NCBI RefSeq assembly: GCF_026427715.1 | Contig: NZ_CP107558.1 | Coordinates: 2,455,001 to 2,519,000, forward strand | Length of the DNA stretch: 64,000 bases | Source: Methylocystis sp. MJC1 | GTDB taxonomy: Bacteria > Pseudomonadota > Alphaproteobacteria > Rhizobiales > Beijerinckiaceae | Direction: 5' to 3' | Shown here: positions 4,238 to 19,997 of the stretch, one piece after another | How the letters are laid out: each line of letters opens with the position of its first letter | Position numbering within the stretch: the stretch's first letter is position 1 | The notes under the pieces: generated by a model | What the model saw: the letters and a program-made list of their open reading frames with translations, nothing else | Told to the model about the DNA's origin: nothing | Databases searched by the model: none | Made by a program: the position numbers and the translations under genes

Positions 4238-4512
4238 CACGGCCGGCCGCCGCATGCTGTACAGCGCAATTTCCGCTTGAGCGACGGCAATTCAACCGAG
4301 CCAGGCAGCGCCGACACGTCGACGCTCTCTCGGCGACCGCAGGCGCATTTGACGGCCACGGCACATATGCCAAGGCTGCGCATATTCGTCAGGTCCATGG
4401 CAGGGCCTGTATAAGCGGGACGAAGGCGGCATTGGGCATAGAGTAGGCAGTCGGCGCCACGGAGGGAGATCGGCGCTGGCCTAAGATGATAGCGCCCGGT
4501 GGCAGCTGAAAT

Positions 4513-4568
4513 CGAACCCTGGGCATACAGCTTGGGAAGCTGTCGTTCTACCACTGAACTACGCCCGC
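4513..4568 (-). pseudogene. 5' part of a tRNA-Gly (anticodon CCC)
   Basis: Read on the minus strand from 4568, the sequence gives a good tRNA-Gly 5' acceptor strand (GCGGGCG), D-arm (GTTCAGTGGTAGAAC) and anticodon arm (ACAGC TTCCCAA GCTGT, anticodon CCC), then enters the T-arm with GGGTTCGAT. From there it no longer matches: the T-stem does not close and no CGCCCGC acceptor strand or CCA follows. It is therefore a truncated tRNA, not a working one. Loss of the 3' half is what a rearrangement at an integration site in a tRNA gene could leave. Confidence 0.7.
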
Positions 4569-6140: not shown

Positions 6141-6470
6141 GTGAGGCGCTTGAACGGCGTCGTCCTCGCATTTGAGTTCGCCCCGGACGGCCGCCTGCTT
6201 AATCACGAAGCGACCGCCGAGACGCCGCCCGGGATGACTGAGATGGCTGCGGCTGCACAGTTTTGTGCGTCTGTAACGACCAACTTCAACGCGCTTGCCG
6301 AAGCATTCTCCAAACTGAGCGGCATGCAGTGGATACCCCAACAGGGGTGGGCGTATTCCGGGGGTGAGTATACGATAGCCATCGGCTGCAATGGCTATCG
6401 CGGGGTTTTCATCAAGACCGAAAAGGCCGACTTCAACCAACTGTTTGAGCTGCTGGTTGCCAGCAAATAG
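6141..6470 (+). CDS. DUF2173 family protein (roadblock/LC7-like)
   Basis: A 109-residue protein matching the DUF2173 family, related in fold to roadblock/LC7 proteins. Typical landmarks are GVVLAFEFAPDGRLLNHE at the N-terminus, FSKLSGMQWIPQQGWAYSG in the middle, and GVFIKTEKADFNQLFELL at the end. No enzyme activity is known; roadblock-like proteins often act as small scaffolds or regulators. The frame opens with GTG at 6141 just after an in-frame stop, and a TTG nine bases on has the better ribosome-binding site (GGTGAGG), so the true start may be 6150. It lies after the csp1 terminator and is probably transcribed separately. Confidence 0.75.
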   Translation: MRRLNGVVLAFEFAPDGRLLNHEATAETPPGMTEMAAAAQFCASVTTNFNALAEAFSKLSGMQWIPQQGWAYSGGEYTIAIGCNGYRGVFIKTEKADFNQLFELLVASK

Positions 6471-6584
6471 CTGGCTTGCGATGAGCGCAGCGCGGGCTAT
6501 GGATGGCGCAGCCGCGCGGATAGGTCCGGCCCGGCGATCGGCGCGCCATAGCGTCGATGAGGGTGCGGCGTTATTATCGCCCCC

Positions 6585-6759
6585 ATGTGCGGACGGTTCA
6601 CACAATCCTACACATGGGCTGAGGTCGAGCGCTTCCTGAGCGTCATCGGCCCGGCGCGCAATCTACGGCCGCGCTACAACATTGCGCCTACCACACCGAT
6701 CGACATCCTACGGCTTGGGGGGACGGGCCGCGAGCTCGTCACCATGCGCTGGGGCCTTG
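6585..6759 (+). pseudogene. SRAP/YedK (HMCES-type) protein, 5' part, split by IS66
   Basis: The first 58 codons of an SRAP-domain gene: MCGRFTQSYTWAEVE carries the catalytic Cys2, and RYNIAPTTPI and MRWGL are conserved. SRAP proteins crosslink to abasic sites in single-stranded DNA and shield them. After MRWGL the frame runs into the IS66 left end and stops. The rest of the gene lies at 9546-10050. Removing the element together with one copy of the 8-bp target duplication restores one frame of 223 codons reading MRWGLVPSWW across the joint, so the insertion is the only visible defect. Confidence 0.92.
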
Positions 6760-6802
6760 GTAGCCATCCGGCGTAGGCCGCAGGCGATGCAGTCGGGCTG
6801 TT

Positions 6803-7042
6803 TCAGCGCCTGAGGAGCGTCGGATCGTTTTTATGCATTTTGATTAGTTCGATTAAATTCTCGACGCCGAAGTCGGTGAAGGCCATCACGGCGTCGTCGC
6901 CGATCCCCGACACCCATATGAGCCCGTCCTCGGGCTCCATCTCGGCGGCGACGTCGAACAGCCAATCCTCGTTTTCGCCGAGGTCCGAGGCGACCCGATT
7001 GATTGTCGTGACGTGAGAGACTTTGTTGACGTGCATGATCAA
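6803..7042 (-). CDS. IS66 passenger protein, unknown function
   Basis: A 79-residue acidic protein ([20 protein letters not shown] at the start, then [19 protein letters not shown] and [20 protein letters not shown]) inside the IS66 element, after tnpC. Its start overlaps the tnpC stop by ATGA, which shows translational coupling with the transposase genes. It is not TnpA, B or C and I do not recognise a family. Similar small downstream frames occur in other IS66 members. The overlap makes a role in transposition or its control plausible, but this is inference. Confidence 0.65.
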
Positions 7043-8649
7043 GCTGCACGAGCGGAGATTACCGGACCTTGTATCGCCCAGTTCCAGGGCAGCAACTCTT
7101 CAAGCCGATGTGCGGGATGGGCGGCGATACAGGACAAAACGTCTGCGAGCCATGCCTGCGGATCGACGCCATTCATTTTGGCCGTGACAATGAGACTATA
7201 CATGGCCGCAGCGCGCTGCCCTCCGCGATCGGACCCGCAGAACAGCCACGATTTTCTTCCCAGCGCGATGCCTCTTAGCCCTCGTTCTGCAGCGTTGTTG
7301 GACAAGCACACGCGTCCGTCTTCAAGGAAAAGCGTGAACGCGGCCCAGCGCTTGAGCATGTAACTGATAGCCTTGACCAGGTCGTGCCCGCGCGAGAGCC
7401 TGGCCGCCTGCTCGCGCATATAGATCCGCAGATCATCGACCAATGGACGGCTCAGCATCTGGCGGACCGACAGGCGTTCTTCCGCGCTCTTTCCATTGAT
7501 GGACCGCTCGATTTCGAACAGCGCGTCGATGCGACGCACCACCTCGATCGCGATGGGCGACAAAGGGATTTCCTTCTTGCCAGCAGCCTTGCGTCGCGCG
7601 TTCTCATCCAGATCAGCCATGGCGAAGAAGGGGCGTCGCGCATGGACCCAGCACGCCGCCTCGCGGATCGGGCCCGGCTTGCGGTCCGCTAGGTAGAGCC
7701 TGTTGTAGCCGTCATAGGCGTCGGCCTGCAGGATGCCAGCATATCCCGCCAGATGCGCCTGCGGATGTTCGCCTTTGCGGTCGCGTGAGTAATAAAAGAT
7801 GGCCGCCGGCGGCCCGGCGCCGCCGAAGGGCGCGTCGTCGCGGACATAAACCCAGCACCGACCCGTGTCGGTTTTGCCCTTCGCCAGCACGGGAACCGTG
7901 GTGTCGTCGCCGTGTAGGCGCTCGGCGGCCAGGACATGCGCCTCGATGAGACGCCGCAGCGGATCCAGCGCCGCACAGATGGAGCCGACGGCGTCGGCCA
8001 TGGTCGACAAGGAGATCGGCGCGCCTTCCAACGCATAGCGCTCCGCCTGACGGTTCAGCGGCTGATGTTGGCCGAACTTCTCGAAGGCGATCATCGCCAG
8101 AAGGCTTGGCCCCGCCCAGCCGCGCGGAACGGCATGGAACGGCGCCGGCGCCTGTGTGATCTTCTCGCAGTCCCGACAGGAGAATTTCTCTCGCACGGTC
8201 TCGATCACTTTCCACTGACGCGGCGTCGTCTCCAGCGTCTGCGTCACGTCTTCGCCGAGCTTCCGCAGCCGCGATCCGCCGCAGCAAGCGCAGCTCGTCG
8301 GCGCCTCGATTACGACGCGCTCGCGCGGTAGATGTTCCGGGAATGTGTGGCGCTCGGACCGTTTGCGCGTGAAGCCCGCGACCAGCGTGGTTTTCGTGAC
8401 CGCCTGCTCCGCCGCGAGCTCATCTTCCGTCGCGCTCGCTTCCAGCTCTTCGAGCTCGAGCGACAACTGATCGATCAGCCGCGCAGCGCGCTCCGACTTT
8501 TGCCCGTAGATCTGCCGCTGCAACTTGGCGATCTGAAGCTTTTGCGCGGCGATCAGCGCCGTGTCTTCCGACGCCTTCGCCCGTGCGACGGCCAACTCTG
8601 CTTTCAGCGCAGCATTTTCGTCGAGAAGGGCCTGGGCAGCAGCGTCCAT
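7039..8649 (-). CDS. tnpC: IS66 transposase TnpC
   Basis: A 536-residue transposase. It starts with a leucine-rich coiled coil (residues about 5-80), followed by a zinc-ribbon-like region with two Cys pairs (CACCGG and SCRDC, near residues 119-160), then the DDE_Tnp_IS66 core. Acidic positions can be placed in [20 protein letters not shown] and [18 protein letters not shown], the last being the family signature, with the C-terminal domain after [10 protein letters not shown]. The length is normal and no frame disruption is seen. It needs TnpA and TnpB, encoded upstream on the same strand, for full activity. Confidence 0.96.
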
Positions 8650-8719
8650 AGGCGAAGTGAATCACATATCTTGCGATTTGTGGCGCCCCAAAATGCCTCC
8701 GCCCTGGATTTTTTGCGAT

Positions 8720-9067
8720 TCACCCCGCGCTTTGCGGCCGAAAGGTCATTTGCGGATTTCGCCAATCTATCCCTTCGAGCATATAGGCCATCTGCGCCGC
8801 CGAGATCGACACCGCGCCCGCCGTCGCCGAGGGCCATATGAACTTTCCGCGATCGAGGCGTTTTGCATACAGCGACAGTCCGACGCCATCATGCCAGAGA
8901 ATTTTTGCGAGGTCGCCCCTGCGCCCGCGGAAAATGTAGAGATCGCCGGCGTGCGGGTCGCGCTTCAACTGCTCCTGCACCTGAAGGGCGAGGCCCTGCA
9001 TGCCGCGTCGCATGTCGGTGTGGCCGGTGGCGATCCAGACGCGGCAGCCCGCCGGCAACGGGATCAT
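8720..9067 (-). CDS. tnpB: IS66 accessory protein TnpB
   Basis: A 115-residue IS66 Orf2 protein, starting MIPLPAGCRVWIATGHTDMR, with the conserved GLALQVQEQL, DLYIFRGRRGDLAKILWHDG and GLSLYAKRLDRGKFIWP. I chose the ATG at 9067 because it overlaps the tnpA stop by ATGA and matches the family start; the frame extends upstream without reason. TnpB is required for transposition of IS66 elements, although its biochemical role is not settled. Confidence 0.95.
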   Translation of the reverse strand: MIPLPAGCRVWIATGHTDMRRGMQGLALQVQEQLKRDPHAGDLYIFRGRRGDLAKILWHDGVGLSLYAKRLDRGKFIWPSATAGAVSISAAQMAYMLEGIDWRNPQMTFRPQSAG

Positions 9068-9435
9068 CGCCGCAGCGCCTTCACGACCCGCGACAGCGCG
9101 GCTGCCTCGACATCGGACCACACGAGGATCCGGTCACCCTCGGCGAGGACGATCTCCATCTGGCCGGTCGGCCCCGGAGCGGAATGCTCCCCCACTGTGT
9201 CCGGCGTGATCGTCACGGGCAGGATCGGCGCGAGGTCCTGCGGCGCAGCCAGATCGACGCCGAACTGCCGGCGCCAGGTGAAGAGCTGGTTGGTGTTGAG
9301 GTCGTGCCGTCGCGCAACCTCGGCGATCGAAGCTCCGTCCTCAAGGCTCTCCTCGACGATCCGGCGCTTCTCTTCGAGAGACCAGGATCGGCGTCGGCGC
9401 CGGAGAGCCGGCGGATCGTCATCGTTGCGCGACAT
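9064..9435 (-). CDS. tnpA: IS66 accessory protein TnpA (HTH)
   Basis: A 123-residue protein with a helix-turn-helix of the HTH_8/transposase-8 type: SWSLEEKRRIVEESLEDG, then SIAEVARRHDLNTNQLFTWR. It is the first gene of the element and lies about 100 bp from its right end, so the promoter should sit in that interval. Family members bind DNA and are needed with TnpB and TnpC for transposition. Confidence 0.93.
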   Translation of the reverse strand: MSRNDDDPPALRRRRRSWSLEEKRRIVEESLEDGASIAEVARRHDLNTNQLFTWRRQFGVDLAAPQDLAPILPVTITPDTVGEHSAPGPTGQMEIVLAEGDRILVWSDVEAAALSRVVKALRR

Positions 9436-9545
9436 CGGCGATAGTGTCCGCTTGTAATAGAAGTGGACACGATCATCGCGCCACCCGTCAGGCAGCTATC
9501 TCAAAAACCGCAATCAACGCCAGGCGGCCGCCGCCGGAGGGATAC

Positions 9546-10050
9546 GGGCCTTGTCCCGTCCTGGTGGAAGAAACCGCTCAGCGAACTGCCGTCGACATTC
9601 AACGCCCGCGCCGAGACGCTTGCCGAAAAGCCGATGTTCCGCTCGGCGCTCAAGTCGCGTCGCTGCATCATCCCGGCGTCGGGCTTCTATGAATGGACCG
9701 GCAAGCCGGGGGCAAAAACGCCCCACTATTTCTCGGCGCGCGACGGCCGCCCGCTGGCTTTTGCAGGCCTATGGGAGTGCTGGCGCGATCCTGAGACACA
9801 GGAGCCCATGGAGTCCGCAACGATTGTCGTGGGGCCCGCAAACGAGTGGATGCGGCCGTTTCATGACCGCATGCCCGTCATTCTCGACTGGTGCGACGCC
9901 GGCGCCTGGATGGCGGGAGAGCGCCTTGGGGAGCTTCTTTGTCACCCGCCCGAGAACGCGCTACACGAATGGATCGTATCGCCGCGGGTGAACCGCTCTG
10001 GCGTCGGGAACGATGATCCGGCGCTAATCGAACCCTCGCGGGCGGCTTGA
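9546..10050 (+). pseudogene. SRAP/YedK protein, 3' part, split by IS66
   Basis: Continuation of the gene begun at 6585. After the second copy of the target duplication it reads GLVPSWWKKPLSELPSTFNA, then ARAETLAEKPMFRSAL, CIIPASGFYEW, FAGLWECW and RMPVIL, all SRAP landmarks, and stops normally at 10050. The ORF continues upstream into the IS66 end, so a translated product from within the element is possible but would lack the catalytic Cys2. SRAP genes are often carried on phages and plasmids, which fits the context. Confidence 0.92.
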
Positions 10051-10123
10051 TTATGCTGCCGCCCAATCCCGCTCGCCCCAGCCTGAGTCTCACGTTTCCT
10101 GTTCGCCCCGGCCGCTGCCTTTG

Positions 10124-10630
10124 TCAGTGATCGGCGTGCGCTCCCCAGTGCCCGTGGCCAATTGGCGTCAAAAGCACATGGAAGAGAAGAACGCCGAAGC
10201 GGCGCTTCTGCGCATCGTCGAGACTGTCGAAGAGCGGCTTCGCAGCGTCCGCGAGCTTGCTTAGCTCTGCGCCCCGTGAAGTAAGCCCCTGAGAGCGCAG
10301 TCGTAGCCCCTCGACGACGTTGTGATGCTCGCGAATGTCTTTCCATTTTCCGCGCAACTCAGCGACGCGATCCGCGCGAGCTTTCCATACCTCGCGCAAA
10401 GCCGTTTCGAGCGCGGGCCATGATTTTTCCTGCACCACAGTAAGCTTCAAACCCGATTTTAGCGCTGCTACCCGGGCGTCTAAAAAAGCCGCGCGGTCTT
10501 CAGGAGAGAAGCCTTGATCCCCGGCCTGAGTGGGCTGATCAGTTGCGGGTGGGTCGGCAAGAGCGGTCCCTGCCAGACCTGCGGCAGCGAGCATCGCCGC
10601 GGACATGATGGTGAGGAGTCGTTTACGCAA
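10124..10630 (-). CDS. Spy/CpxP-like (LTXXQ) periplasmic protein
   Basis: A 168-residue protein with an N-terminal signal peptide (RKRLLTIMSAAMLAAAGLAG, cleavage probably after TALA) and two LTXXQ-type repeats: LKLTVVQEKSWPAL and FDSLDDAQKRRFGVLL. This is the Spy/CpxP family of helical periplasmic proteins, which act as ATP-independent chaperones or as dampers of envelope stress signalling, often responding to metals such as copper or zinc. The C-terminus is His-rich (GHGHWGAHADH). I chose TTG at 10630 because it begins a clean signal peptide and has GAGG upstream; the open frame extends 36 codons further. No envelope-stress kinase is adjacent. Confidence 0.8.
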   Translation of the reverse strand: MRKRLLTIMSAAMLAAAGLAGTALADPPATDQPTQAGDQGFSPEDRAAFLDARVAALKSGLKLTVVQEKSWPALETALREVWKARADRVAELRGKWKDIREHHNVVEGLRLRSQGLTSRGAELSKLADAAKPLFDSLDDAQKRRFGVLLFHVLLTPIGHGHWGAHADH

Positions 10631-10831
10631 GACGCAGCCTCGATGTAGGAATGGATAGTTAGCCCGATGTATGTCCGCGCCTGAAAATGGCAAATTAAGC
10701 TTCTGTAACCAATGACTTGCTCGCCATCGAGCGGGCAAGCAGCGAGGGGCTTGAAGGGCAGCTACGGGGCGCTACCTCAAAAATATCAAGGGCGCGTCGT
10801 CGCCCACCCCCATCCCGGGGGATACGCGCCC

Positions 10832-10858
10832 AGCCCGGCCCTGAGCGGCCGGGCTTCG
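10832..10858 (+). terminator. Hairpin with T-rich tail
   Basis: A 9-bp stem AGCCCGGCC / GGCCGGGCT followed by TCGTTGCTTTC. No gene is visible directly upstream on this strand, so it may end a small RNA or transcription from further left. Similar AGCCC...GGGCT hairpins stand near 11216-11236 and 14700-14728. Confidence 0.45.
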
Positions 10859-10884
10859 TTGCTTTCGAGTCGTAGGAAGCCGAT

Positions 10885-11100
10885 ATGGACGAAGCGGCCG
10901 GCGTCATTGCAGATGACAAACAGAGCGAGCCGGAACAGCCCGGCATCACTTTCGAGGAATTGCGCGAGGGCCGCTGCAAATTCCCGCTCGGGCGCCTCAG
11001 CGACCCGCCAGAGCGCTTTTGCGGGGAGCCAGTGGCGATCGGCTCGCCATACTGTCCCGCATGCCGGCGTATTGTCTACGCCGAGCGTGCGACACCCTAG
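10885..11100 (+). CDS. GcrA C-terminal-domain protein, short form
   Basis: A 71-residue protein starting at ATG 10885 with AGGAAG 8 nt upstream. It holds the GcrA C-terminal signature: ELREGRCKFPLGRLSDPPE, then RFCGEPVAIGSPYCPACRR. Four cysteines (CKFP, FCG, CPAC) could hold a metal. The first 30 residues are acidic and there is no DNA-binding helix-turn-helix. In GcrA the C-terminal domain contacts sigma70, so this protein might bind host RNA polymerase. Stand-alone proteins of this kind occur in phages and islands. It is the second such protein in this window (see 3247-3591). Confidence 0.75.
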   Translation: MDEAAGVIADDKQSEPEQPGITFEELREGRCKFPLGRLSDPPERFCGEPVAIGSPYCPACRRIVYAERATP

Positions 11101-11169
11101 GTAGACTGCGTTCAAAATCCAGAAACGTTGTCGAAAAGCCCAGACCACGAGTGATCGTCTAGTTTCGGC

Positions 11170-11240
11170 TGCCCTCGATTCGCCCCCCAAGCCCCCGAGG
11201 GCGCAGGTCCTCGGTAGCCCGCCGGCGCCGAGGGCTTGCT
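11170..11240 (+). terminator. Tandem hairpins after the GcrA-like gene
   Basis: Two weak stems: CCCTCG / CGAGGG (11172-11201) and AGCCC / GGGCT (11216-11236) followed by TGCTTTCT. They lie 70-135 bp after the GcrA-like stop and may end its transcript. Confidence 0.3.
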
Positions 11241-11319
11241 TTCTAAGTTTCAAGAGCGCGAGCCGCGCTCAGGCCACTGGCGCAGTGGATGGCGCTCATC
11301 CCAGACTACGCATGCTAGC

Positions 11320-12363
11320 TGTTTGATCCCAGGATTTGATGGTGCAATCTTTTCCAGCGAATGGAAGGATGCGCTATGGGCCAGGTTCTCCACGGGAGCG
11401 CCCGCACGACTGAGGCGGTGCGTCGAGCGATACAACATAGTCAAGAGAGCCTGAGAGCTCTCGCCAAGCGGTATGGCGTCAACCAGAAGACGATCGCCAA
11501 GTGGAAGAAGCGGGCGTCGGTTTGCGACGAGCGCACGGGGCCTAAAGAGCCCAGATCCACGGTTCTCACGATCGAGGAGGAGGCGATCATTGTCGCCTTC
11601 CGCCGTCACACATTGCTGCCCTTGGACGACTGCCTCTATGCCCTCCAGGCGACTATTCCCCACCTGACGCGATCGTCGCTGCATCGCTGTCTTCAGCGCC
11701 ACGGCATCTCACGGTTGCCGAGCGTCGAGGGCGAGGTCTCCGCCAAGCGGAAGTTCAAAGCCTATCCGATTGGCTATTTCCATATCGACATCGCCGAAGT
11801 GCGCACGGCCGAAGGCAAGCTCTACATGTTCGTGGCGATCGACCGAACGTCGAAATTCGCTTTCGTCGAACTGCATGAGAAGGCCACGACGCGGATCGCC
11901 GCCGACTTCCTGTTCGCGTTGATCAAAGCCGTTCCCTATAAAATCCACACGGTGCTCACGGATAATGGAACGCACTTTACTGATCCCCGCGGCGAGACCT
12001 GGACCCCTGCGGAAATCAAGCAAATGCTGGCGGAGGGGCGACCCTTCAGGGCGCATGCGTTTGAGTTCGCCTGCGCCCGCGCCGATATCGATCATCGCCT
12101 GACCAAGCCCAAGCATCCTTGGACCAATGGCCAGGTTGAGCGCATGAACCGCACGATCAAGGAAGCGACGGTTAAGCGCTACTTCTATGAAACGCACGCA
12201 GAGCTGCGAACGCATCTCGACCACTTCGTCACCGCATACAATTTCGCCCGCCGCTTGAAGACCCTCAAAGGCCTCACGCCGTACGAATTCATCTGCAAAC
12301 TCTGGACGAAAGAGCCAGACAGATTCATACTCGATCCGCTCCATCAGATGCCGGGACTAAACA
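11320..12363 (+). mobile_element. IS481-family insertion sequence
   Basis: A 1,044-bp element whose ends are inverted: TGTTTGATCCCAGG at the left and, read inward from the right, TGTTTAGTCCCGGC, then GATGG on both sides. It is flanked on both sides by GCTAGC (11314-11319 and 12364-12369), which fits the NCTAGN 6-bp target duplication known for IS481. It encodes one transposase whose stop codon TAG is supplied by the flanking target sequence. Confidence 0.92.
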
Positions 12364-12368
12364 GCTAG
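11376..12368 (+). CDS. IS481-family transposase
   Basis: A 330-residue DDE transposase. An N-terminal helix-turn-helix (RTTEAVRRAIQHSQESLRAL, then LAKRYGVNQKTIAKWKKR) is followed by an rve integrase core with FHIDIAEVRTAEG, VLTDNGTHF and TNGQVERMNRTIKEAT, giving the D-D-E triad, and by the C-terminal FVTAYNFARRLKTLKGLTPY motif. I chose the ATG at 11376 (MGQVLHGSART); the frame starts five codons earlier. Length and motifs are complete. The last codons read GLNS then TAG, and the TAG lies in the duplicated target, so the protein end depends on the insertion site. Confidence 0.93.
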   Translation: MGQVLHGSARTTEAVRRAIQHSQESLRALAKRYGVNQKTIAKWKKRASVCDERTGPKEPRSTVLTIEEEAIIVAFRRHTLLPLDDCLYALQATIPHLTRSSLHRCLQRHGISRLPSVEGEVSAKRKFKAYPIGYFHIDIAEVRTAEGKLYMFVAIDRTSKFAFVELHEKATTRIAADFLFALIKAVPYKIHTVLTDNGTHFTDPRGETWTPAEIKQMLAEGRPFRAHAFEFACARADIDHRLTKPKHPWTNGQVERMNRTIKEATVKRYFYETHAELRTHLDHFVTAYNFARRLKTLKGLTPYEFICKLWTKEPDRFILDPLHQMPGLNS

Positions 12369-12507
12369 CGAGGTCCTTTGCAGGGCCGGTGTAGGCGGAG
12401 GCCGCGGCAAGAATTCACTGCCTAGCGCAGCTTTCGTAGTTGACGAAATGTGCAACCACGCCATGTCCGCCGAATTGCCGGTTCGTCGGCAACGGAGGAA
12501 GACGCCC

Positions 12508-12705
12508 ATGACGTATCTCATGCTCCGAGCGACCCTTGCTGGCGCAGCGCTGTTCTCTGGCGCACTACTCGCTCAAGCTCAGTCAGTCCCACCGATCGAT
12601 GCTCCTGCTCAGATGGCGCCGGCCCCCGATGACCAAGGAGGCCCCGCCGATCTCCCAACTACGCCAGGCGTGCCTGAGCCCGACGACGACTCGGATGGTG
12701 GCTGA
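12508..12705 (+). CDS. Small exported Pro/Asp-rich protein
   Basis: A 65-residue protein starting at an ATG with GGAGGA upstream. The first 25 residues (MTYLMLRATLAGAALFSGAL, then LAQAQ) form a signal peptide, and the mature part is short, proline-rich and acidic (PPIDAPAQMAPAPDDQGGPA and a PDDDSDGG end). It would be a small disordered periplasmic peptide. I do not recognise a family. A longer frame starts at 12448 but lacks a ribosome-binding site. Confidence 0.55.
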   Translation: MTYLMLRATLAGAALFSGALLAQAQSVPPIDAPAQMAPAPDDQGGPADLPTTPGVPEPDDDSDGG

Positions 12706-13489
12706 TACAGAAGTGGGTTTCTGCAACTGCAGGCTATACAGAAGGGTGATCACCTGCTCGCGCAGCTAGCGGGCTCTGATGCGCATCTAAACAAAGCCCG
12801 CCCCTATAGAAGCCGTCGAGGCGCTGCGTCGATGCGCCAGGTGGGGGCAATGCAGCGGGCGGCTCGGCGCGGGCGCCAAGGGCTTGTCCCAAAAACCGAG
12901 CCGCCTTGCCCGGTTGGCGGATGGAGGCCGGGCGACCTTGTTTCACACCGCCATCAACCGCCCGCAATTGGGGGGAATACTCAGCAACCAGTCGCGCAGC
13001 GCGCCGCCGGCGTCAGCGCACGCGGCTGACTTGTTGGCGGTTCTGCGTCAGTTCCTCGACGATTTCCCCGAAGCGCGTGTTTTTTCGTGCGCCTGCCATC
13101 AGCTGGGGTGAGAGCCTGTCTACGTACTTCGCAACATAGGCCGCGCCACCTACTGTGAGCGCCTATGCTGGCATTGTCCGCCAAACGCCGCCAGCCCTGC
13201 ATGCAACCCTGCCGAATTCGAGAGCAGCGTAGGACCTCACGTTCAGCCGCCCGCGACCGCCATGGCGAGGCCACCCATCGTCGCGACAACGATCGATAGC
13301 AGCACTGCGTTTGCGATTTGCGCACGGATGAACATGCCCGAGAAATTAACGCCCTGCCTTGGTCATCACAATTAGCAGAAACCGAGCGGTGGATTGTCGC
13401 ACGGAGGCGACGCTACAGGATTGCGGACCTACGCCTTTGACCAGAGAAACCTTGGAATTCCCGCCACGTTTGCCGCAGGCGAGGGTCAT
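12706..13489. other. 784-bp stretch without a clear gene
   Basis: Several short frames are open but overlap one another. The two that look most like protein are on the minus strand: a 30-residue peptide at 13243-13335 (listed separately) and a start-less frame at 13013-13162 reading TVGGAAYVAKYVDRLSPQL then MAGARKNTRFGEIVEEL. They may be pieces of one decayed small membrane protein. The rest shows nothing I can support. Confidence 0.35.
13243..13335 (-). CDS. 30-residue hydrophobic peptide (possible gene remnant)
   Basis: The frame starting at ATG 13335 encodes MFIRAQIANAVLLSIVVATM followed by a short Gly/Ala-rich tail: one hydrophobic helix after a charged N-terminus. The ribosome-binding site is weak. 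It could be a membrane peptide or the start of a decayed gene whose later part is the open frame at 13013-13162. Confidence 0.3.
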   Translation of the reverse strand: MFIRAQIANAVLLSIVVATMGGLAMAVAGG

Positions 13490-13810
13490 CTAGCGGGATC
13501 GTGGGATGTTTTTGGGCAAAGCGATCATCAAACGCTCTGCGAAAATGGCGGTCTTTACCAATTGCCGGGTCAACGCTGCGGCTCCGGCCGTTTCAGCCAT
13601 CAGCGCGCTCGTCGCGTTGCCGCAATAAGAAAGGAAATCATTCGGCATAACCGCGCCGTCCGTCGCTTTGGCTATGGCTTCAAGAACTGCGAGCGTTGGG
13701 TTGATTTTGCCGTTCCGCAGCTTGTTGATTGTGCCCTGAGCATAGCCAGTCGCTTCCGCGAGAGCTTTCTCCGAGACCCCGTATTGACGAAGGTAGGCGT
13801 CGAGCTTCAT
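13490..13810 (-). CDS. XRE/Cro-type regulator, probably leaderless
   Basis: A 106-residue DNA-binding protein with a Cro/C1 helix-turn-helix at residues about 8-55: YLRQYGVSEKALAEATGYAQ, then GTINKLRNGKINPTLAVLEA. The C-terminal half (SYCGNATSALMAETAGAAAL) is not recognised. I chose the ATG at 13810 because a consensus promoter (TTGACA, 17 bp, GAATAT) ends 7 bp before it, which puts the transcript start at or one base before the ATG; the mRNA would then have no leader, as known for some phage repressors. It is divergent from the second XRE regulator at 13896. Because the same promoter sequence also drives the operon from 14857, this protein or its neighbour is the likely repressor of both. 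Confidence 0.8.
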   Translation of the reverse strand: MKLDAYLRQYGVSEKALAEATGYAQGTINKLRNGKINPTLAVLEAIAKATDGAVMPNDFLSYCGNATSALMAETAGAAALTRQLVKTAIFAERLMIALPKNIPRSR

Positions 13811-13860
13811 GCCCACGATATTCTCTACCGGAATAAATCTTGTCAAGAATAATATTCCGG
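13811..13860 (-). promoter_or_regulatory. Promoter-operator P1 (reads left)
   Basis: On the minus strand: TTGACA (13846-13841), a 17-bp spacer and GAATAT (13823-13818). The -35 lies inside an inverted repeat with 8-bp arms CCGGAATA / TATTCCGG, and a smaller palindrome TCTTG-T-CAAGA covers it. About 36 of 42 positions match the second copy at 14753-14811. It should drive the regulator gene at 13490-13810 and be autoregulated. Confidence 0.8.
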
Positions 13861-13895
13861 AAGCGGTCTGGCGATCCGAGGCAATCGCTGCGACG

Positions 13896-14237
13896 ATGCA
13901 AGCCATGGAAAACTCAGACGAAATCAAGCAGAGACGGCAGCCAACGTTTCTCCGTCAATGGCGAAAGCACCGAGCGCTATCGCAGGAGGAGGCGGCAGAT
14001 CGCATCGGCGTGAAGCAGGGAACCCTGTCGAAGGTCGAACGGGGCGAGCTCCCCTACAATCAGGATTTCCTCGAGCGCGTCGCTCTCGCGTATGGCTGCG
14101 AGCCGGAAGATTTACTCAGTGTTAACCCGTTGAAGCCCGACCCGCTGAGACTGGTCGTTTCAGATCTGCGCAAGGCCCCGGCAGACGTCCGCGCGCGAGC
14201 GATCAATGTTCTCGAAGCGTTGCTGAAAGCCGGGTAG
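13896..14237 (+). CDS. XRE-family regulator, divergent partner
   Basis: A 113-residue protein with a clear XRE/HTH_3 domain at residues about 18-75: LRQWRKHRALSQEEAADRIG, then VKQGTLSKVERGELPYNQDF and ALAYGCEPEDLL. The C-terminal part (LRLVVSDLRKAPADVRARAI) looks helical and may dimerise. The start is ATG 13896 or ATG 13905; neither has a strong ribosome-binding site, and the open frame starts further up inside the P1 operator. With the divergent gene at 13490-13810 it forms a two-regulator switch like those of temperate phages and integrative elements. Which of the two binds the repeated operator cannot be told from sequence. Confidence 0.85.
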   Translation: MQAMENSDEIKQRRQPTFLRQWRKHRALSQEEAADRIGVKQGTLSKVERGELPYNQDFLERVALAYGCEPEDLLSVNPLKPDPLRLVVSDLRKAPADVRARAINVLEALLKAG

Positions 14238-14401
14238 TAATCCGGTTAACCTTAAATATCAGCGCTGCCTTTACGCTCGCGACCTATGTCAGATTCCGAT
14301 AATTCATTCGGAAGACGGCACGGCATGCCGCGCTTGTTTTGTTGCTTGCTCTTTCGTCTTTCCCTGCTGCAGCGGCGTAAACTTTCATTTCCGGTGAGCC
14401 A

Positions 14402-14554
14402 ATGGGCTGGCGTGCACAACAGAACCGCGAGGACGATGAACAGCGTCAGCGGCGCAAGCTGCCGCTACGCGAGCGCTATGATTGGAGCGGATTAACGATT
14501 CTGGCCGCCATGCTCGTGACTGCTGCCGGAGCGATCATCTATTGGCGTCGCTGA
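14402..14554 (+). CDS. 50-residue membrane protein
   Basis: ATG at 14402 with GGTGAG close upstream encodes 50 residues: a very basic/acidic N-terminal half (QQNREDDEQRQRRKLPLRER) and one transmembrane helix near the C-terminus (LTILAAMLVTAAGAIIYW). It would sit in the inner membrane with the charged part inside. Small one-helix proteins of this layout are common in prophage-like regions. Function unknown. Confidence 0.55.
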   Translation: MGWRAQQNREDDEQRQRRKLPLRERYDWSGLTILAAMLVTAAGAIIYWRR

Positions 14555-14699
14555 ATTCAGGCGGTTAACGGAGTGGTTTAATAAAAAATTAGCTCAGGTC
14601 TCACGGGGGTTTTCTCGTATTGCAGATACTCTATCGGCCGATCGAGGGAAGCCGTCTTAGTCGCTTCGTCTGCCACTCCCCAAGCCCTCGCTTTGATTG
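14555..14699. other. Spacer before the operon promoter
   Basis: No convincing gene. A minus-strand frame covering 14578-15168 runs through here and over the two small plus-strand genes; its part near 14578-14690 looks somewhat protein-like, but there is no start, promoter or family match. Confidence 0.35.
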
Positions 14700-14728
14700 A
14701 GCCCAGCCTCGCGCTGGGCTTTTTGTTT
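14700..14728 (+). terminator. Strong Rho-independent terminator
   Basis: An 8-bp stem AGCCCAGC / GCTGGGCT with a 5-nt loop and the tail TTTTTGTTT. It isolates the operon that starts at the P2 promoter from transcription coming from the left. Confidence 0.85.
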
Positions 14729-14752
14729 ATCCCGTCGTTTGGCGGGCAATAT

Positions 14753-14811
14753 ATATTCTTCCATAGAATATTTTTCTTGACAGGAATTATTCCGCACGAG
14801 AATATCCTCCC
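14753..14811 (+). promoter_or_regulatory. Promoter-operator P2 (reads right)
   Basis: TTGACA at 14777-14782, a 17-bp spacer and GAATAT at 14800-14805 form a near-consensus promoter. The core TTCTTGACA, then TTATTCCG and GAGAATATC are shared with P1 (13811-13860). Upstream of the -35 is an extra perfect palindrome ATATTCT-TCCAT-AGAATAT (14753-14771). It should drive the operon 14857-18820 under the control of one of the two XRE regulators. Confidence 0.8.
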
Positions 14812-14856
14812 ATCAGCCGCCACTAACGCCCCCCCTCGGGCGGCAAGGAGGACTCC

Positions 14857-14976
14857 ATGTTCCACCTTCTCACCGAAGCCCAATTCGTCACCCTTCTCGT
14901 CGCCGCGCCCGGCCTGATCTTCTGCGCCGCCTTCGCCGGCGGCCGCTACTTCGCGCGCAACCTCATCGAGGCGTGA
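14857..14976 (+). CDS. 39-residue membrane peptide, first gene of the island operon
   Basis: ATG at 14857 with AGGAGGA upstream. The product has a hydrophobic central segment (FVTLLVAAPGLIFCAAFAGG) and a short basic end (RYFARNLIEA), so it is a one-helix membrane peptide. It lies about 45 bp after the predicted P2 transcript start and 3 bp before the next gene. Function unknown. Confidence 0.6.
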   Translation: MFHLLTEAQFVTLLVAAPGLIFCAAFAGGRYFARNLIEA

Positions 14977-14979
14977 GCG

Positions 14980-15144
14980 ATGGCGACCTTCTTCGCCTTC
15001 CTCTTCGGCTTCGCGCTCGCGCTGATCATCGGCTTTTTGCTCGGGTTCGCGGCGGCGGCGCAATCCGTCAAAGACGAGGCGGCGCGTGGCGTCATGTCCA
15101 TCGGCGGCAACCATTATCGCTGCACGAAGATCGATGCGGAGTGA
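14980..15144 (+). CDS. 54-residue membrane protein
   Basis: ATG at 14980, three bases after the stop of the previous gene. The N-terminal 30 residues are one transmembrane helix (FAFLFGFALALIIGFLLGFA), followed by a soluble tail (QSVKDEAARGVMSIGGNHYR then CTKIDAE). No family is recognised. Close spacing shows co-transcription and probably translational coupling. Confidence 0.6.
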   Translation: MATFFAFLFGFALALIIGFLLGFAAAAQSVKDEAARGVMSIGGNHYRCTKIDAE

Positions 15145-15654: not shown

Positions 15655-15938
15655 GCGCCGCCGTAATCGATTTCCGCACACGTGCGCAGGCCGGGCCCAC
15701 CGAGCGCAGCCGCCTCACCACAACCTATCGCGAGATGCTCGCCGAGCCGCTCGAAGAATTCGAAATCGCCGTCGCCGGCGGCGACCTCTCGACCGCCCGC
15801 GACGCGCTTGCCGCCTTCATCGCTTTCGATCTGCCCGAGGGAACGCCGCTCGAGGCTCTCGAATGGCGCGGCGAACAAATCCGCACGCTCGCCGAGAAGC
15901 TTTGCGCGACCGAATGCGCGCCGAAAAGGACTCTCTAA
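15651..15938 (+). CDS. Hypothetical helical protein, 95 residues
   Basis: I chose TTG at 15651, which overlaps the preceding stop (TTGA) and has GAAGGGGG upstream; no ATG gives a better start. The product (SAAVIDFRTRAQAGPTERSR at the N-terminus, then REMLAEPLEEFEIAVAGGDL and EWRGEQIRTLAEKLCATEC) looks helical and acidic. It ends in a TAATG overlap with the ParB-like gene, so the two are translationally coupled and probably work together. Function unknown. Confidence 0.65.
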   Translation: MSAAVIDFRTRAQAGPTERSRLTTTYREMLAEPLEEFEIAVAGGDLSTARDALAAFIAFDLPEGTPLEALEWRGEQIRTLAEKLCATECAPKRTL

Positions 15939-17881
15939 TGACCACGCTTCCCCTTGCCAGCATCACCCGCATTTCGCCGTTCAATCCCAACCAGGACATG
16001 GAAAGCGACGTGTCATCGCTCGCCGCGACGATCCGCGCGATCGGCATGGAATATCCCTTGAGCGTGCGCGAGCGGCCCGATGTCAGGGGCGAGTTCGAAG
16101 TTCTGGATGGCGGCCGTCGCTGGCGCGCGCTCAAGTTGCTTGCCGCGCAGGATTCTGGCTTCGAGGAACATTTTCCTGAGGTCAAGATTTTCAACGGCGA
16201 CGACGCAGGGGCGCTCCAGCTCGCCCTTACGCTTTCCGTAACGCCTCGCGCGAAACATCCCGTCGACGATTTCGAGCGCTTCTCCCTTCTGGTCGAACAG
16301 CACGGCAGAACGATCGCCGACATCGCCCGAGACTTCGGCGAGACCGAGCGCCTTGTCCGCCAGCGCCTGGCGCTCGCTGCGCTGGCGCCGCGCGTGCGCG
16401 AGATGTGGCGCAAGGGCGAGATCACGCGCGAGGCCGCCGAGGCCTATACGATCGCACCGCTCGCCGCGCAGGAGGCGCTGCTCGACGATTGGGAAAAACG
16501 GGCGCCGGGCAAGATAAAGGACGCCTTCTTCATCCGCGCCGCCTTGCGCGGCGACACGATGGTCGCAGTCGAGCCCGTCGCGAAATTCATCTGCGCTGAT
16601 CTTTCGCGTCTCGCCGTCTACCGCGATCGCGGCGGTCGTGTGCTGGAGGATTTGTTCTCCGAGCAACCGGGGCTGCAAGACCCTCCGATCGCCGTTGCGC
16701 TTGCCAATGATCTGCTGCGCGACGAGGCGCAATGGGTCGCCGATGCGGAGGGCTGGGGCCACGCCTTCGCGGGCGAGGACGAGGGCGGCTTCGAGGAATG
16801 CCTTCTCTCGACCGATGATGAGGAGCGGCTCAACACGATCGCACGCGAGCTCGCCGGTGAATGCTCGAAGGCAAAGCGCAAGAAGCTGATTGCCGAGCGC
16901 GAGGCGATCATGGCGGCGGTCGACGATCGCGCCGCCTATGGCGTGCGCGCCGACCTCGATGCGGCAGGCGAGATTTATTTTACCCGCGGCGTCGCGCTCC
17001 CCGACGAAGCCGCGCAAAGGCCCGGCGGCGACGACCAAGAGTCGCCGCCGGGCGAGAGTGAAGATCAGTCTTTCGCGACATGTGAACGCCCGGAGCAGGG
17101 CGATGTTCCGAAGCCTCTCGGTGATCCCGGAAAGCAGCTTCGCGCCGTCATCGACGCCGGCGCGACCCTGGCATTGCGCGACGCCGTGCGCCAGCGGCCT
17201 GACATCGCCTTGATGCTCGCCGTGGCGGCGCTCGGGTGCCAGTGGGGCGCCTTTGGCCTCGGCCTGCGTCCCGTTCAATCGCAGGAGCCAGAAGACGACG
17301 ATCTCCTGAAGCGCATCCGGCCGCTCTATTTCGCCGATGCGCTCGCCGCATGCGCGGAGGCCTCGACGAACGATCTCACCGTCGCTTTCGCACGTATCGT
17401 CGCAGTAGGGATGGAAGCGCAAGGGATCGGCTTCGATGCGATCGGTAAGCTCTTCCAAGCCATCGCCGCGCGCGGCGGCGACGTGACGGGCGCGATCTTA
17501 CGGGCCCACGATCACCGCGCCTTTTTCGAGGCCGCCGAGAAGGAGCGCACGCTGCGCATCATCGGCGCGCTGATCGGCCCCGCCGAGGCCGCCCGCGCCA
17601 GCCGGATGAAGAAAGACAAGCTCGCAGCACATGCCGCGACGCTCGCCAAGGAAAAGGGCTATCTCCCGCCGCCCTTCGGCAATTGGGTTTCCTTCCCCAC
17701 GCGCTCCGGCGCGCTCGACGAGGCGATTTATTCTGACCGCGATACGCCGCTCGCCCAGGCGATGCGCGAGGCGATCGACAAGGATGAGGCAGGCGAGAGC
17801 ACCGGCAAGGGGCGCAGGCGCGGCCCGCGCAAGACGCCGATCGAGAAGGCAATTGCTAAGACGAAAGGAGCCGCGGCGTGA
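15938..17881 (+). CDS. Large ParB/Spo0J-type protein
   Basis: A 647-residue protein with an N-terminal ParB nuclease-like/CTP-binding fold at residues about 10-100 (ISPFNPNQDMESDVSSLAAT, then GGRRWRALKLLAA) and a KorB/ParB helix-turn-helix region near 125-170 (TIADIARDFGETERLVRQRL). The following ~450 residues are unlike chromosomal ParB (usually about 290 residues) and end in a basic Arg/Lys-rich tail (GKGRRRGPRKTPIEKAIAKT). No ParA gene is nearby. Large ParB-like proteins of this type are found on alphaproteobacterial plasmids, phages and ICEs, where roles range from partition to gene regulation. The start is the ATG overlapping the upstream stop. No parS-like site was recognised by eye. 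Confidence 0.88.
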   Translation: MTTLPLASITRISPFNPNQDMESDVSSLAATIRAIGMEYPLSVRERPDVRGEFEVLDGGRRWRALKLLAAQDSGFEEHFPEVKIFNGDDAGALQLALTLSVTPRAKHPVDDFERFSLLVEQHGRTIADIARDFGETERLVRQRLALAALAPRVREMWRKGEITREAAEAYTIAPLAAQEALLDDWEKRAPGKIKDAFFIRAALRGDTMVAVEPVAKFICADLSRLAVYRDRGGRVLEDLFSEQPGLQDPPIAVALANDLLRDEAQWVADAEGWGHAFAGEDEGGFEECLLSTDDEERLNTIARELAGECSKAKRKKLIAEREAIMAAVDDRAAYGVRADLDAAGEIYFTRGVALPDEAAQRPGGDDQESPPGESEDQSFATCERPEQGDVPKPLGDPGKQLRAVIDAGATLALRDAVRQRPDIALMLAVAALGCQWGAFGLGLRPVQSQEPEDDDLLKRIRPLYFADALAACAEASTNDLTVAFARIVAVGMEAQGIGFDAIGKLFQAIAARGGDVTGAILRAHDHRAFFEAAEKERTLRIIGALIGPAEAARASRMKKDKLAAHAATLAKEKGYLPPPFGNWVSFPTRSGALDEAIYSDRDTPLAQAMREAIDKDEAGESTGKGRRRGPRKTPIEKAIAKTKGAAA

Positions 17882-18823: not shown

Positions 18824-19897
18824 ATGCCGCGCCGCCGCCCGATATACCTGCACAAGGAGACGACCCGCCACGGGCGCACGGTCTATTACTTCCGGCGCGA
18901 CAAGGACGCGCCGCGCATTCGAATTAATGGCGAGTATGGGTCGGAGCAGTTCATGGCCGAGTATATGGCCGCGCTGGCCGGTGAACCGGTCGAGTCGGCC
19001 CCGGCAAAGACTGCACAAGGCACGCTCGCCTGGCTGATCGAGCGCTATCGGGACAGCGCCGAATGGGCAAAGTTCTCTCCCGCCACCAAGCGCCAGCGCG
19101 AAAACATCCTAAAGCAGGTCATCAAAAATGGTGGCGACTCGACGCTGACCTCGATCAAGCGTTCGACAATCGCGAAGGCTCGGGACAAGCGCGCCAATAC
19201 GCCCGCTCAGGCAAACCACTTCCTGAAGGTCATGCGCTCCCTGTTCAAATGGGCGCACGAGGCCGGGCTTGTCGCCGATAATCCGACCCTCGGCGTCTCA
19301 TTCGCCCGCAGCAAGACGGACGGGCACCACGTCTGGACGGAGGAAGAGGTTCAGCAGTTCAAGCGCCGCTGGCCGGTCGGGACGCGAGAGCGGCTCGCGC
19401 TTGCCATCCTGCTCTACACCGGCCTGCGCCGCGGCGACGCGGCCCGGCTCGGGCGCCAGCACGTCCGTGACGGCGTTATCATGCTGAACACAGAAAAAAC
19501 CGGCACCCGGGTCGAGATCCCCATCCTGCCGGAGCTCGCCGAGATTATCGACGCGTCGCCTACGGGAGACTTGGCATTCATCGCCAAGCTAGATCGCGCC
19601 CCAATGGACAAGAACAGCTTTGGGAACTGGTTTCGAGACGCCTGCGTTGCCGCCGGCGTCCCCGGGCGCGCTCACGGACTCCGTAAAGCTGGCGCGACCC
19701 GGGCTGCTGAGAACGGGGCGACCGAGAAGGAGCTTGAGGCGATATTCGGTTGGACGGACGGCGGCAGGACGGCCGCGATCTATACGCGCGAGGCTGACCG
19801 GAAAAAGCTCGCCCGGGCGGCCGTTGGGAAGCTATCGCGACGAAAATCCAATACCCGCACCACTCTATCAGGTGCGGGGAATTTTCGAGAAAAGTAA
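18824..19897 (+). CDS. Tyrosine recombinase / phage-type integrase
   Basis: A 357-residue integrase. A short N-terminal arm-binding part (RRRPIYLHKETTRHGRTVYY) is followed by a core-binding SAM-like domain (residues about 65-160) and the catalytic domain. Conserved residues seen are Arg in LLYTGLRRGD (near 201), Lys in LNTEKTGTR, His-x-x-Arg in HGLRKAGATR (His near 283), Trp in the FGWTDGGRT box where many relatives have His, and the nucleophile Tyr in IYTREA (near 320). It ends 26 bp before the 3' end of a tRNA-Cys gene, the expected attachment site, so it marks the right boundary of an integrated element. Confidence 0.93.
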   Translation: MPRRRPIYLHKETTRHGRTVYYFRRDKDAPRIRINGEYGSEQFMAEYMAALAGEPVESAPAKTAQGTLAWLIERYRDSAEWAKFSPATKRQRENILKQVIKNGGDSTLTSIKRSTIAKARDKRANTPAQANHFLKVMRSLFKWAHEAGLVADNPTLGVSFARSKTDGHHVWTEEEVQQFKRRWPVGTRERLALAILLYTGLRRGDAARLGRQHVRDGVIMLNTEKTGTRVEIPILPELAEIIDASPTGDLAFIAKLDRAPMDKNSFGNWFRDACVAAGVPGRAHGLRKAGATRAAENGATEKELEAIFGWTDGGRTAAIYTREADRKKLARAAVGKLSRRKSNTRTTLSGAGNFREK

Positions 19898-19923
19898 GGT
19901 TTTACAGATACTTATAAACGGAG

Positions 19924-19997
19924 TGGAGGCCTCGGAGGGAATCGAACCCCCGTACAAGGATTTGCAGTCCTCTGCGTAGCCACTCCGCCACGAGGCC
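19924..19997 (-). tRNA. tRNA-Cys (anticodon GCA)
   Basis: Read on the minus strand: acceptor strand GGCCTCG, D-arm with GGAGTGGCTACGC, anticodon arm AGGA CTGCAAA TCCT (anticodon GCA), T-arm GGGGG TTCGATT CCCTC region, and closing CGAGGCC followed by T and an encoded CCA at the 3' end. The fold is complete. The 3' end faces the integrase gene, which fits use of this tRNA as attachment site. No second copy of the 3' segment was found in the 19.9 kb to the left. Confidence 0.93.

Follow-up and report, generated by a model that had tools for sequence, protein, structure and literature searches.

The probable immunity region of a lambda-type temperate phage in a prophage remnant of Methylocystis sp. 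MJC1

We analysed a stretch of 64,000 nucleotides of the Methylocystis sp. MJC1 genome (hereafter the window), in which two near-identical promoter sequences lie in opposite orientation around a pair of XRE regulator genes. The region around these promoters is very probably the immunity region of a lambda-type temperate phage, kept in a prophage remnant. This reading draws on sequence, geometry, recurrence, synteny and covariation, from which we infer binding, direction of control and present-day activity. The original prediction, in which a single repressor would control its own gene and a whole operon, holds in that the same operator-like sequence stands at both promoters in the layout of a lysogeny switch.

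Results

Positions 13817-13857 and 14766-14806 are inverted copies of each other, with 35 of 41 bases identical in direct comparison. The near-identity first put at about 36 of 42 bases is real, and its figure is corrected here. A repeat search returned this pair as the top and longest inverted repeat (41 nt, 85% complementary), and in 200 first-order Markov shuffles of 13400-15000 the best 41-mer match averaged 25.2 and reached at most 27, against the 35 observed. No third copy of TTCTTGACA-N4-TTATTCCG-N4-AGAATATC occurs in the 4.54-Mb genome of the organism at up to three mismatches, and the reversed control had 0 matches. The promoters predicted in these copies, P1 (PR; 13818-13846, minus strand) and P2 (PL; 14777-14805, plus strand), both read TTGACA-N17-GAATAT, with the 17-bp spacer described in the original prediction, and the TTGAC of P1 lies 36 nt upstream of the XRE1 ATG. 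Their -10 hexamer GAATAT is weak, with three of six matches to the Escherichia coli consensus. A promoter scan of 13400-15000 called no sigma-70-like site, and so no candidate PRM-type promoter for XRE2, but the scan missed P1 and P2 as well.

The inverted repeats previously named at P1 and upstream of P2 are present in the sequence, and the more regular repeat unit is a 17-bp dyad, TATTC-N7-GAATA. Only one perfect dyad is found at P1 (13819-13835) and two at P2 (14754-14770 and 14788-14804), while degenerate copies cover both -35 boxes. At P1, the candidate OR operators, on the minus strand, are the perfect dyad TATTCCGGTAGAGAATA over the -10 box (13819-13835) and the degenerate TATTCTTGACAAGATTT over the -35 box (13835-13851), a position that holds better dyads in several relatives. 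At P2, the candidate OL operators, on the plus strand, are the distal TATTCTTCCATAGAATA (14754-14770), the degenerate TTTTCTTGACAGGAATT over the -35 box (14772-14788) and the proximal TATTCCGCACGAGAATA over the -10 box (14788-14804), with distal and proximal sites 34 bp apart. A terminator-like hairpin with a T run lies between XRE2 and P2 (14699-14721, plus strand); three such hairpins were found in the region, with 1.8 expected. The loose operator pattern TATTCYNNNNNRGAATATC had matches in 27 of 298 family genomes, compared with 7 for its reversed control; the match list by itself showed no link to XRE genes, and one of the matches (G125:C159:38275) was later identified as a PL site. Scanning viral contigs with the long consensus gave no match.

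XRE1, the Cro-position helix-turn-helix (HTH) protein, has 106 residues (13490-13810, minus strand; HTH_3, 1.2e-9). Its homologues measure 67-118 residues with little outside the HTH domain, extending about 7-42 residues beyond NDFL in tails unlike that of the window protein, and the window protein consists of a fused duplicated segment from about residue 76 on. The XRE1 profile A2 found only three viral loci, weakly. XRE2, the CI-position repressor candidate, has 110 residues (13905-14237, plus strand; HTH_3, 9.2e-13); only HTH models of Pfam match it, and Peptidase_S24 is absent. Its AlphaFold model (mean pLDDT 85, pTM 0.61) comprises the HTH domain and two C-terminal helices, with no further domain. 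The best PDB matches to this model were SinR, 434 Cro and P22 c2, of which only SinR fell below an E-value of 0.001 (5.9e-4); among the 50 matches listed, identity to XRE2 was 18-35% and the TM-score by query length 0.37-0.55, and likeness of HTH-domain folds carries little information on function. The phi106 repressor-AimX and SinR-SinI complexes were also among the matches, and such structures with a bound partner offer a lead, and no more, to a release of XRE2 by a partner protein. Some repressors like SinR, P22 c2, 434 Cro and that of phi106 lack S24 and are freed by partner proteins.

The start of XRE1 has a constant position relative to its promoter. TTGA[CA] lies 35-37 nt upstream of the XRE1 ATG in 21 of 21 loci checked, all with a recognised MxLx-type XRE1 start (L099, L144, L149, L137 and L138 were left out), and Shine-Dalgarno-like AGGA, GGAG or GAGG is absent from about -20 to -4 in the same 21. 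Among loci with a PR call, an ATG or GTG stood at 35-37 nt in 9 of 11 from the family and 12 of 14 from the order. Given that this distance and the 17-bp spacer would place the transcript start at or beside the ATG, the XRE1 mRNA is predicted from sequence to be leaderless, as the cI and cro mRNAs of phage PY54 are described to be (PMC4488713).

Relatives of the element were found through its ParB_N-containing protein (15938-17881, plus strand; PF02195 at 6.7e-6, barely over the cut-off), which has a 63% match in prophage 2 of the same genome. At E ≤ 1e-40, 16 of 397 family genomes had matches, in 19 places. Six of the 19 were studied: the window, L059/L066 (same genome), L061/L067 in G177, L063/L068 in G190, L064/L065 in G114, and L062 in G297, where no switch region was seen. 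In the ParB-sharing elements, two divergent genes are separated by a gap that holds an element-specific operator, and that operator occurs again further on. In L061, two exact and one looser copy of ACAAG-N4-CTTGT lie in the gap and two exact copies before the downstream operon; in L063/L068, GTTG-N8-CAAC occurs three times in 26 kb, once where the repressor gene starts and twice ahead of the downstream operon; and in L064/L065, TACC-N5-GGTA occurs twice in the gap and once about 1.5 kb before the ParB gene. These three predicted operator sets have the OR/OL layout, and in L059 the operator recurs in a loose version only. The L061 operator, written as ACAA-N6-TTGT, is one that we take to resemble those of 434 and 16-3. 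At the rex position of the G177 prophage, between repressor and PL (L061:4777-7917), lie genes for an HD-domain protein and a HipA_2-like kinase and an uncharacterised gene, possibly accessory or defence cargo.

In L059, L061 and L065, the XRE1-position gene lies upstream of a primase-like gene on the same strand, which was recognised by DUF7146 in L059, by tblastn in L061 and by eye in L065; its primase zinc-ribbon match was below the cut-off. The divergent XRE2-position gene encodes an S24 domain in L059, L061 and L068, and its counterpart in L064 encodes a protein that shares 37% identity with the L059 repressor; no Pfam model matched the partner gene in L068. Such positions argue against XRE1 as the lysogenic repressor with XRE2 as its antagonist, an assignment that the wording of the original prediction suggests. 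P1 would drive XRE1, so this gene would be autoregulated if XRE1 binds, and both window proteins have QGT-type recognition helices, as that assignment would have it. However, with the XRE1-position gene preceding a primase-like gene in three elements, S24 repressors at the XRE2 position and so little beyond the HTH domain in XRE1 homologues, we consider it improbable. P1 most likely drives the Cro-position gene, and XRE2 holds the place that S24-type CI proteins have in syntenic elements.

In both L066 and L067, four gene products were recognised as tape measure, major head, portal and large terminase, indicating that both are prophages and that the window is best read as the remnant of one. 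The original remark that little else of a phage is present agrees with the ORFs scanned, which gave no virion gene, and fits the loss of a left arm, since head, packaging and tail genes are present in two close relatives. The switch of an integrative conjugative element (ICE) or genomic island, with XRE regulators acting on an integrase and transfer genes, had also been suggested. The integrase beside tRNA-Cys, the ParB-like gene and the lack of a structural gene among the window ORFs scanned would suit such an element, but no conjugation gene (relaxase or mating-pair) was found among these ORFs either, and portal, terminase, capsid and tape-measure genes are carried by the syntenic L059/L066 and L061/L067. 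We therefore regard an ICE or island switch as very unlikely, and it is not needed to explain the observations.

In the prophage remnant, a small MGW ORF lies 3' of XRE2 (14402-14554, plus strand) and is also present in L059 and L061. The first ORF of the PL operon encodes 39 residues (14857-14976, plus strand) and has relatives in L059, L061 and, weakly, L063. The P2 operon ends in a tyrosine integrase (18824-19897, plus strand; PF00589, 2.7e-15) adjoining tRNA-Cys(GCA) (19924-19997, minus strand), the 3' end of which is the right end of the element: blastn homology to stretches of three other genomes of the genus begins there, at 19920-19924. No attachment repeat was found for the window element, and a search of the genome for its 25-nt att-side sequence, allowing up to three mismatches, found this one copy alone. 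In the stretches compared, the G177 prophage had no attachment repeat, and prophage 2 had one 14-nt match, taken as chance.

Among the subset of ORFs scanned left of the tRNA there were no virion structural genes, and those scanned left of the switch included transposases. Window positions 6150-13581 align with G000:C1 at about 532.3-536.2 kb as four pieces, 94.6-98.1% identical and with insertions between them, of which 13009-13581 is 98% identical to about 535.7-536.2 kb. Given that this match ends inside XRE1 at about codon 76, the tail of XRE1 appears to be foreign and the left arm of the phage to be missing. The duplicated segment borders the window remnant as well as prophage 2, there at its tail/lysis-gene end (genes recognised by eye), and in the window it is interrupted by an IS66 element and an rve transposase. 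Elsewhere in the window, 4498-4568 (minus strand) has a weak Rfam tRNA match of 33.5 bits with no ARAGORN call, and is by eye tRNA-Gly-like with an altered 3' end. No viral relative was found for protein P0004.

The promoter arrangement recurs around XRE2 homologues. Our protein search yielded 73 XRE2 relatives among the matches listed, own copy included; it was limited to proteins no longer than 1.75 times the query, which kept S24-bearing relatives from appearing, and the search is silent on them. A profile of 28 relatives identified 16 IMG/VR loci, in 15 of which an XRE1 homologue is divergent from and adjacent to the XRE2 homologue (L093 is without XRE1). Together with the window, 16 of 17 loci had matching PR and PL, with half-sites that differ between loci. 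A script defined PR in 15 of the 17 and PL was present in all 15, located 30-621 nt beyond the XRE2 end with a dyad that shares at least 7 of 10 half-site positions with the PR dyad; L097 had its PR and PL located outside this set. Elsewhere in the 15 loci, the same scan gave five further plus-strand and three minus-strand matches among 1,818 TTGA-like sites (per-locus sum; 950 plus, 868 minus, PL sites included), counts in which related loci cannot be taken as independent and in which L090 nearly duplicates L091, and L098 nearly duplicates L099. The geometry test is not blind, since it was designed after a similarity scan and an exact-dyad scan: the former, a blind 36-nt test, scored above its 20 shuffles in 8 of the 20 cases and level with them in 2, and in the latter exact 5-nt OR dyads recurred outside OR in 10 of 20. 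Where both OL copies were located, they were 32-36 bp apart (34 in the window).

Further genome loci gave a mixed result. In longer stretches, which covered 11 of 15 non-window genome places and 2 of 27 phage records, PL was clear (9-10 of 10 positions) in L140, L141 and L149, matched at 7 of 10 in L146 and was doubtful in L142 and L137; L143 and L144 had paired dyads 36 bp apart, no PL was seen in L138, L145, L147 and L148, and the contig of L139 ends too soon. A uniform rescan with 1.5-kb flanks found PL at 8 or more of 10 positions in 6 of 15 family loci, several of them places already in the longer-stretch set, and in 8 of 18 order loci. This totals 14 of 33 with a clear PL, and 19 of 33 with none within 1.6 kb, including short contigs and loci without a PR call. 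L125, the same place as L142, has the helix, PR and 1.5 kb of downstream DNA yet no PL, and even at 3.2 kb L142 had no convincing one. Order loci with PL had half-sites as unlike as GTCAC, GTTTC and ATTGC. Four order-level loci (L108, L109, L111 and L112) have GTCAC-N7-GTGAC-type operators in the same PR/PL geometry. While their inverted orientation, spacing of ~0.9 kb and closeness to IS elements might suggest that the 41-bp copies are the terminal inverted repeats of a transposon with an XRE2 cassette, this is scarcely credible, as no transposase was found between them and the paired sites of relatives vary in half-site and in distance (30 to 812 nt after XRE2) with the TTGAC-dyad geometry kept.

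Sequence comparison suggests that in related phages the switch proteins have changed in step with their DNA sites. The first recognition-helix residue, which in the AlphaFold model of XRE2 is Q38 and opens helix 38-45, is shared by XRE1 and XRE2 in 17 of 23 loci, against 6.9 expected by re-pairing. None of 20,000 re-pairings reached 17 matches, although re-pairing leaves shared ancestry in, and with six near relatives dropped identity was found in 13 of 17. The input had 24 loci, of which L149 was unparsed (K/K by eye), and the pairs that did not match were L086, L095, L144, L146, L137 and L138. For most Q-type pairs the half-site is TATGC, TATGT or TATTC, and for most R-type pairs it is xGTGC or xGTGT. 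A rule noted before more loci were fetched, that a QGT-type XRE2 predicts TATTC sites, held in both of the two further QGT loci that were parsed, L140 and L141 (family and order rescans included); they have TATTC/GAATA dyads at PR and PL, the PR copy of L141 with one mismatch. Given that the genome of L140 was already among the TATTCYNNNNNRGAATATC matches with a TATTC site, L141 is the cleaner test.

Discussion

The window has divergent cI- and cro-position genes with operator-like dyads between them and, past the repressor gene, a second promoter with the same operator, both features of lambda-type switches, and an integrase at a tRNA-gene attachment site, as temperate phages do. The self-cleaving S24 repressor of SOS induction, also a lambda-type feature, is not found in XRE2, and the virion structural genes of a prophage were seen in two syntenic relatives and not among the window ORFs scanned. 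In the mechanism that we propose, a dimer of the CI-like XRE2 would bind the 17-bp TATTC-N7-GAATA dyads at OR and OL and so shut off P1 and P2. P1 would drive the XRE1 operon, which in relatives leads toward the primase-like gene, and P2 the small ORFs, the ParB-like protein and the integrase, while the Cro-like XRE1 would read the same dyads as XRE2. As XRE2 lacks an S24 domain, RecA-stimulated cleavage of the lambda kind is probably not the way to induction; one possible route is a protein antirepressor. With the left arm gone, the switch would at most silence the PL operon and give immunity to phages with TATTC operators.

The duplication of operators at OR and OL is textbook knowledge for lambda, with cI, cro, OR1-3, OL1-3, PR and PL. 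The window resembles lambda in its divergent Cro- and CI-position genes, in operators placed between them and at a second promoter beyond the repressor, in an integrase within the PL operon and in 17-bp operators; unlike lambda, it has a 110-residue repressor without S24, a Cro gene predicted to be leaderless and operator steps of 16 and 18 bp. SinR, P22 c2, 434 Cro and the phi106 repressor are among the nearest solved folds to the XRE2 model but have low sequence identity to it. In N15, cB and cro are described as flanking three OR sites, and two OL sites as preceding repA (PMC4488713). The group of telomere phages N15, phiKO2 and PY54 (immB) is similar in the OR/OL duplication of N15 and the leaderless cI and cro of PY54 (PMC4488713), and differs in its operators, its host group and in having prophages that are linear plasmids.

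Rhizobium phage 16-3, for which oL1, oL2, oR1 and oR2 are reported (PMC12429752), and the phiLM21-like prophages are, like the phage proposed here, temperate phages of Alphaproteobacteria. The phiLM21 repressor, at 227 residues and S24-like by eye, is longer than XRE2, and lambda- or 16-3-like operators are reported absent from phiLM21-like prophages (PMC12429752). In phiLM21 (L159:9911-9962 and 11215-11264), we observed GTAGC-N7-GCTAC exactly twice in 50 kb, 35 bp apart and beyond the repressor gp19, where permuted half-words gave a mean of 0.07. Against an operator role, two gap copies have two mismatches, like 30-odd other sites, and at up to one mismatch the N7 spacer is no richer (3) than other spacers (0-4). 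Correlation of Cro helix residues with operator half-sites has been described (Hall et al., 2005, as cited in PMC4488713); unlike in those Cro rules, here CI-like protein, Cro-like protein and operator covary in one family.

Whether these loci form a widespread class of alphaproteobacterial lambda-type switches, with an S24-less single-domain repressor, a leaderless Cro, 17-bp N7 operators and a fixed geometry in which specificity drifts in concert, is a proposal to which we give about even chances. In the literature searched we found neither this combination of S24-less single-domain repressor, leaderless Cro, N7 dyads and joint specificity drift, nor published operators for the XRE2 family, which is no proof of absence. 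If the proposal is true, the first recognition-helix residues of the two proteins would reveal the identity of the operator, and induction would need to be SOS-independent, for example through an antirepressor, which raises the question of how a repressor without a cleavable domain is released.

For Methylocystis sp. MJC1, the mirrored promoters are identified as probable OR and OL, and a seemingly phage-free island is explained as a remnant that has kept its switch. In the related loci, repressor, Cro and operator vary together while the layout stays fixed, and with such a natural series it would become possible to predict protein-DNA specificity and homo-immunity groups from sequence.
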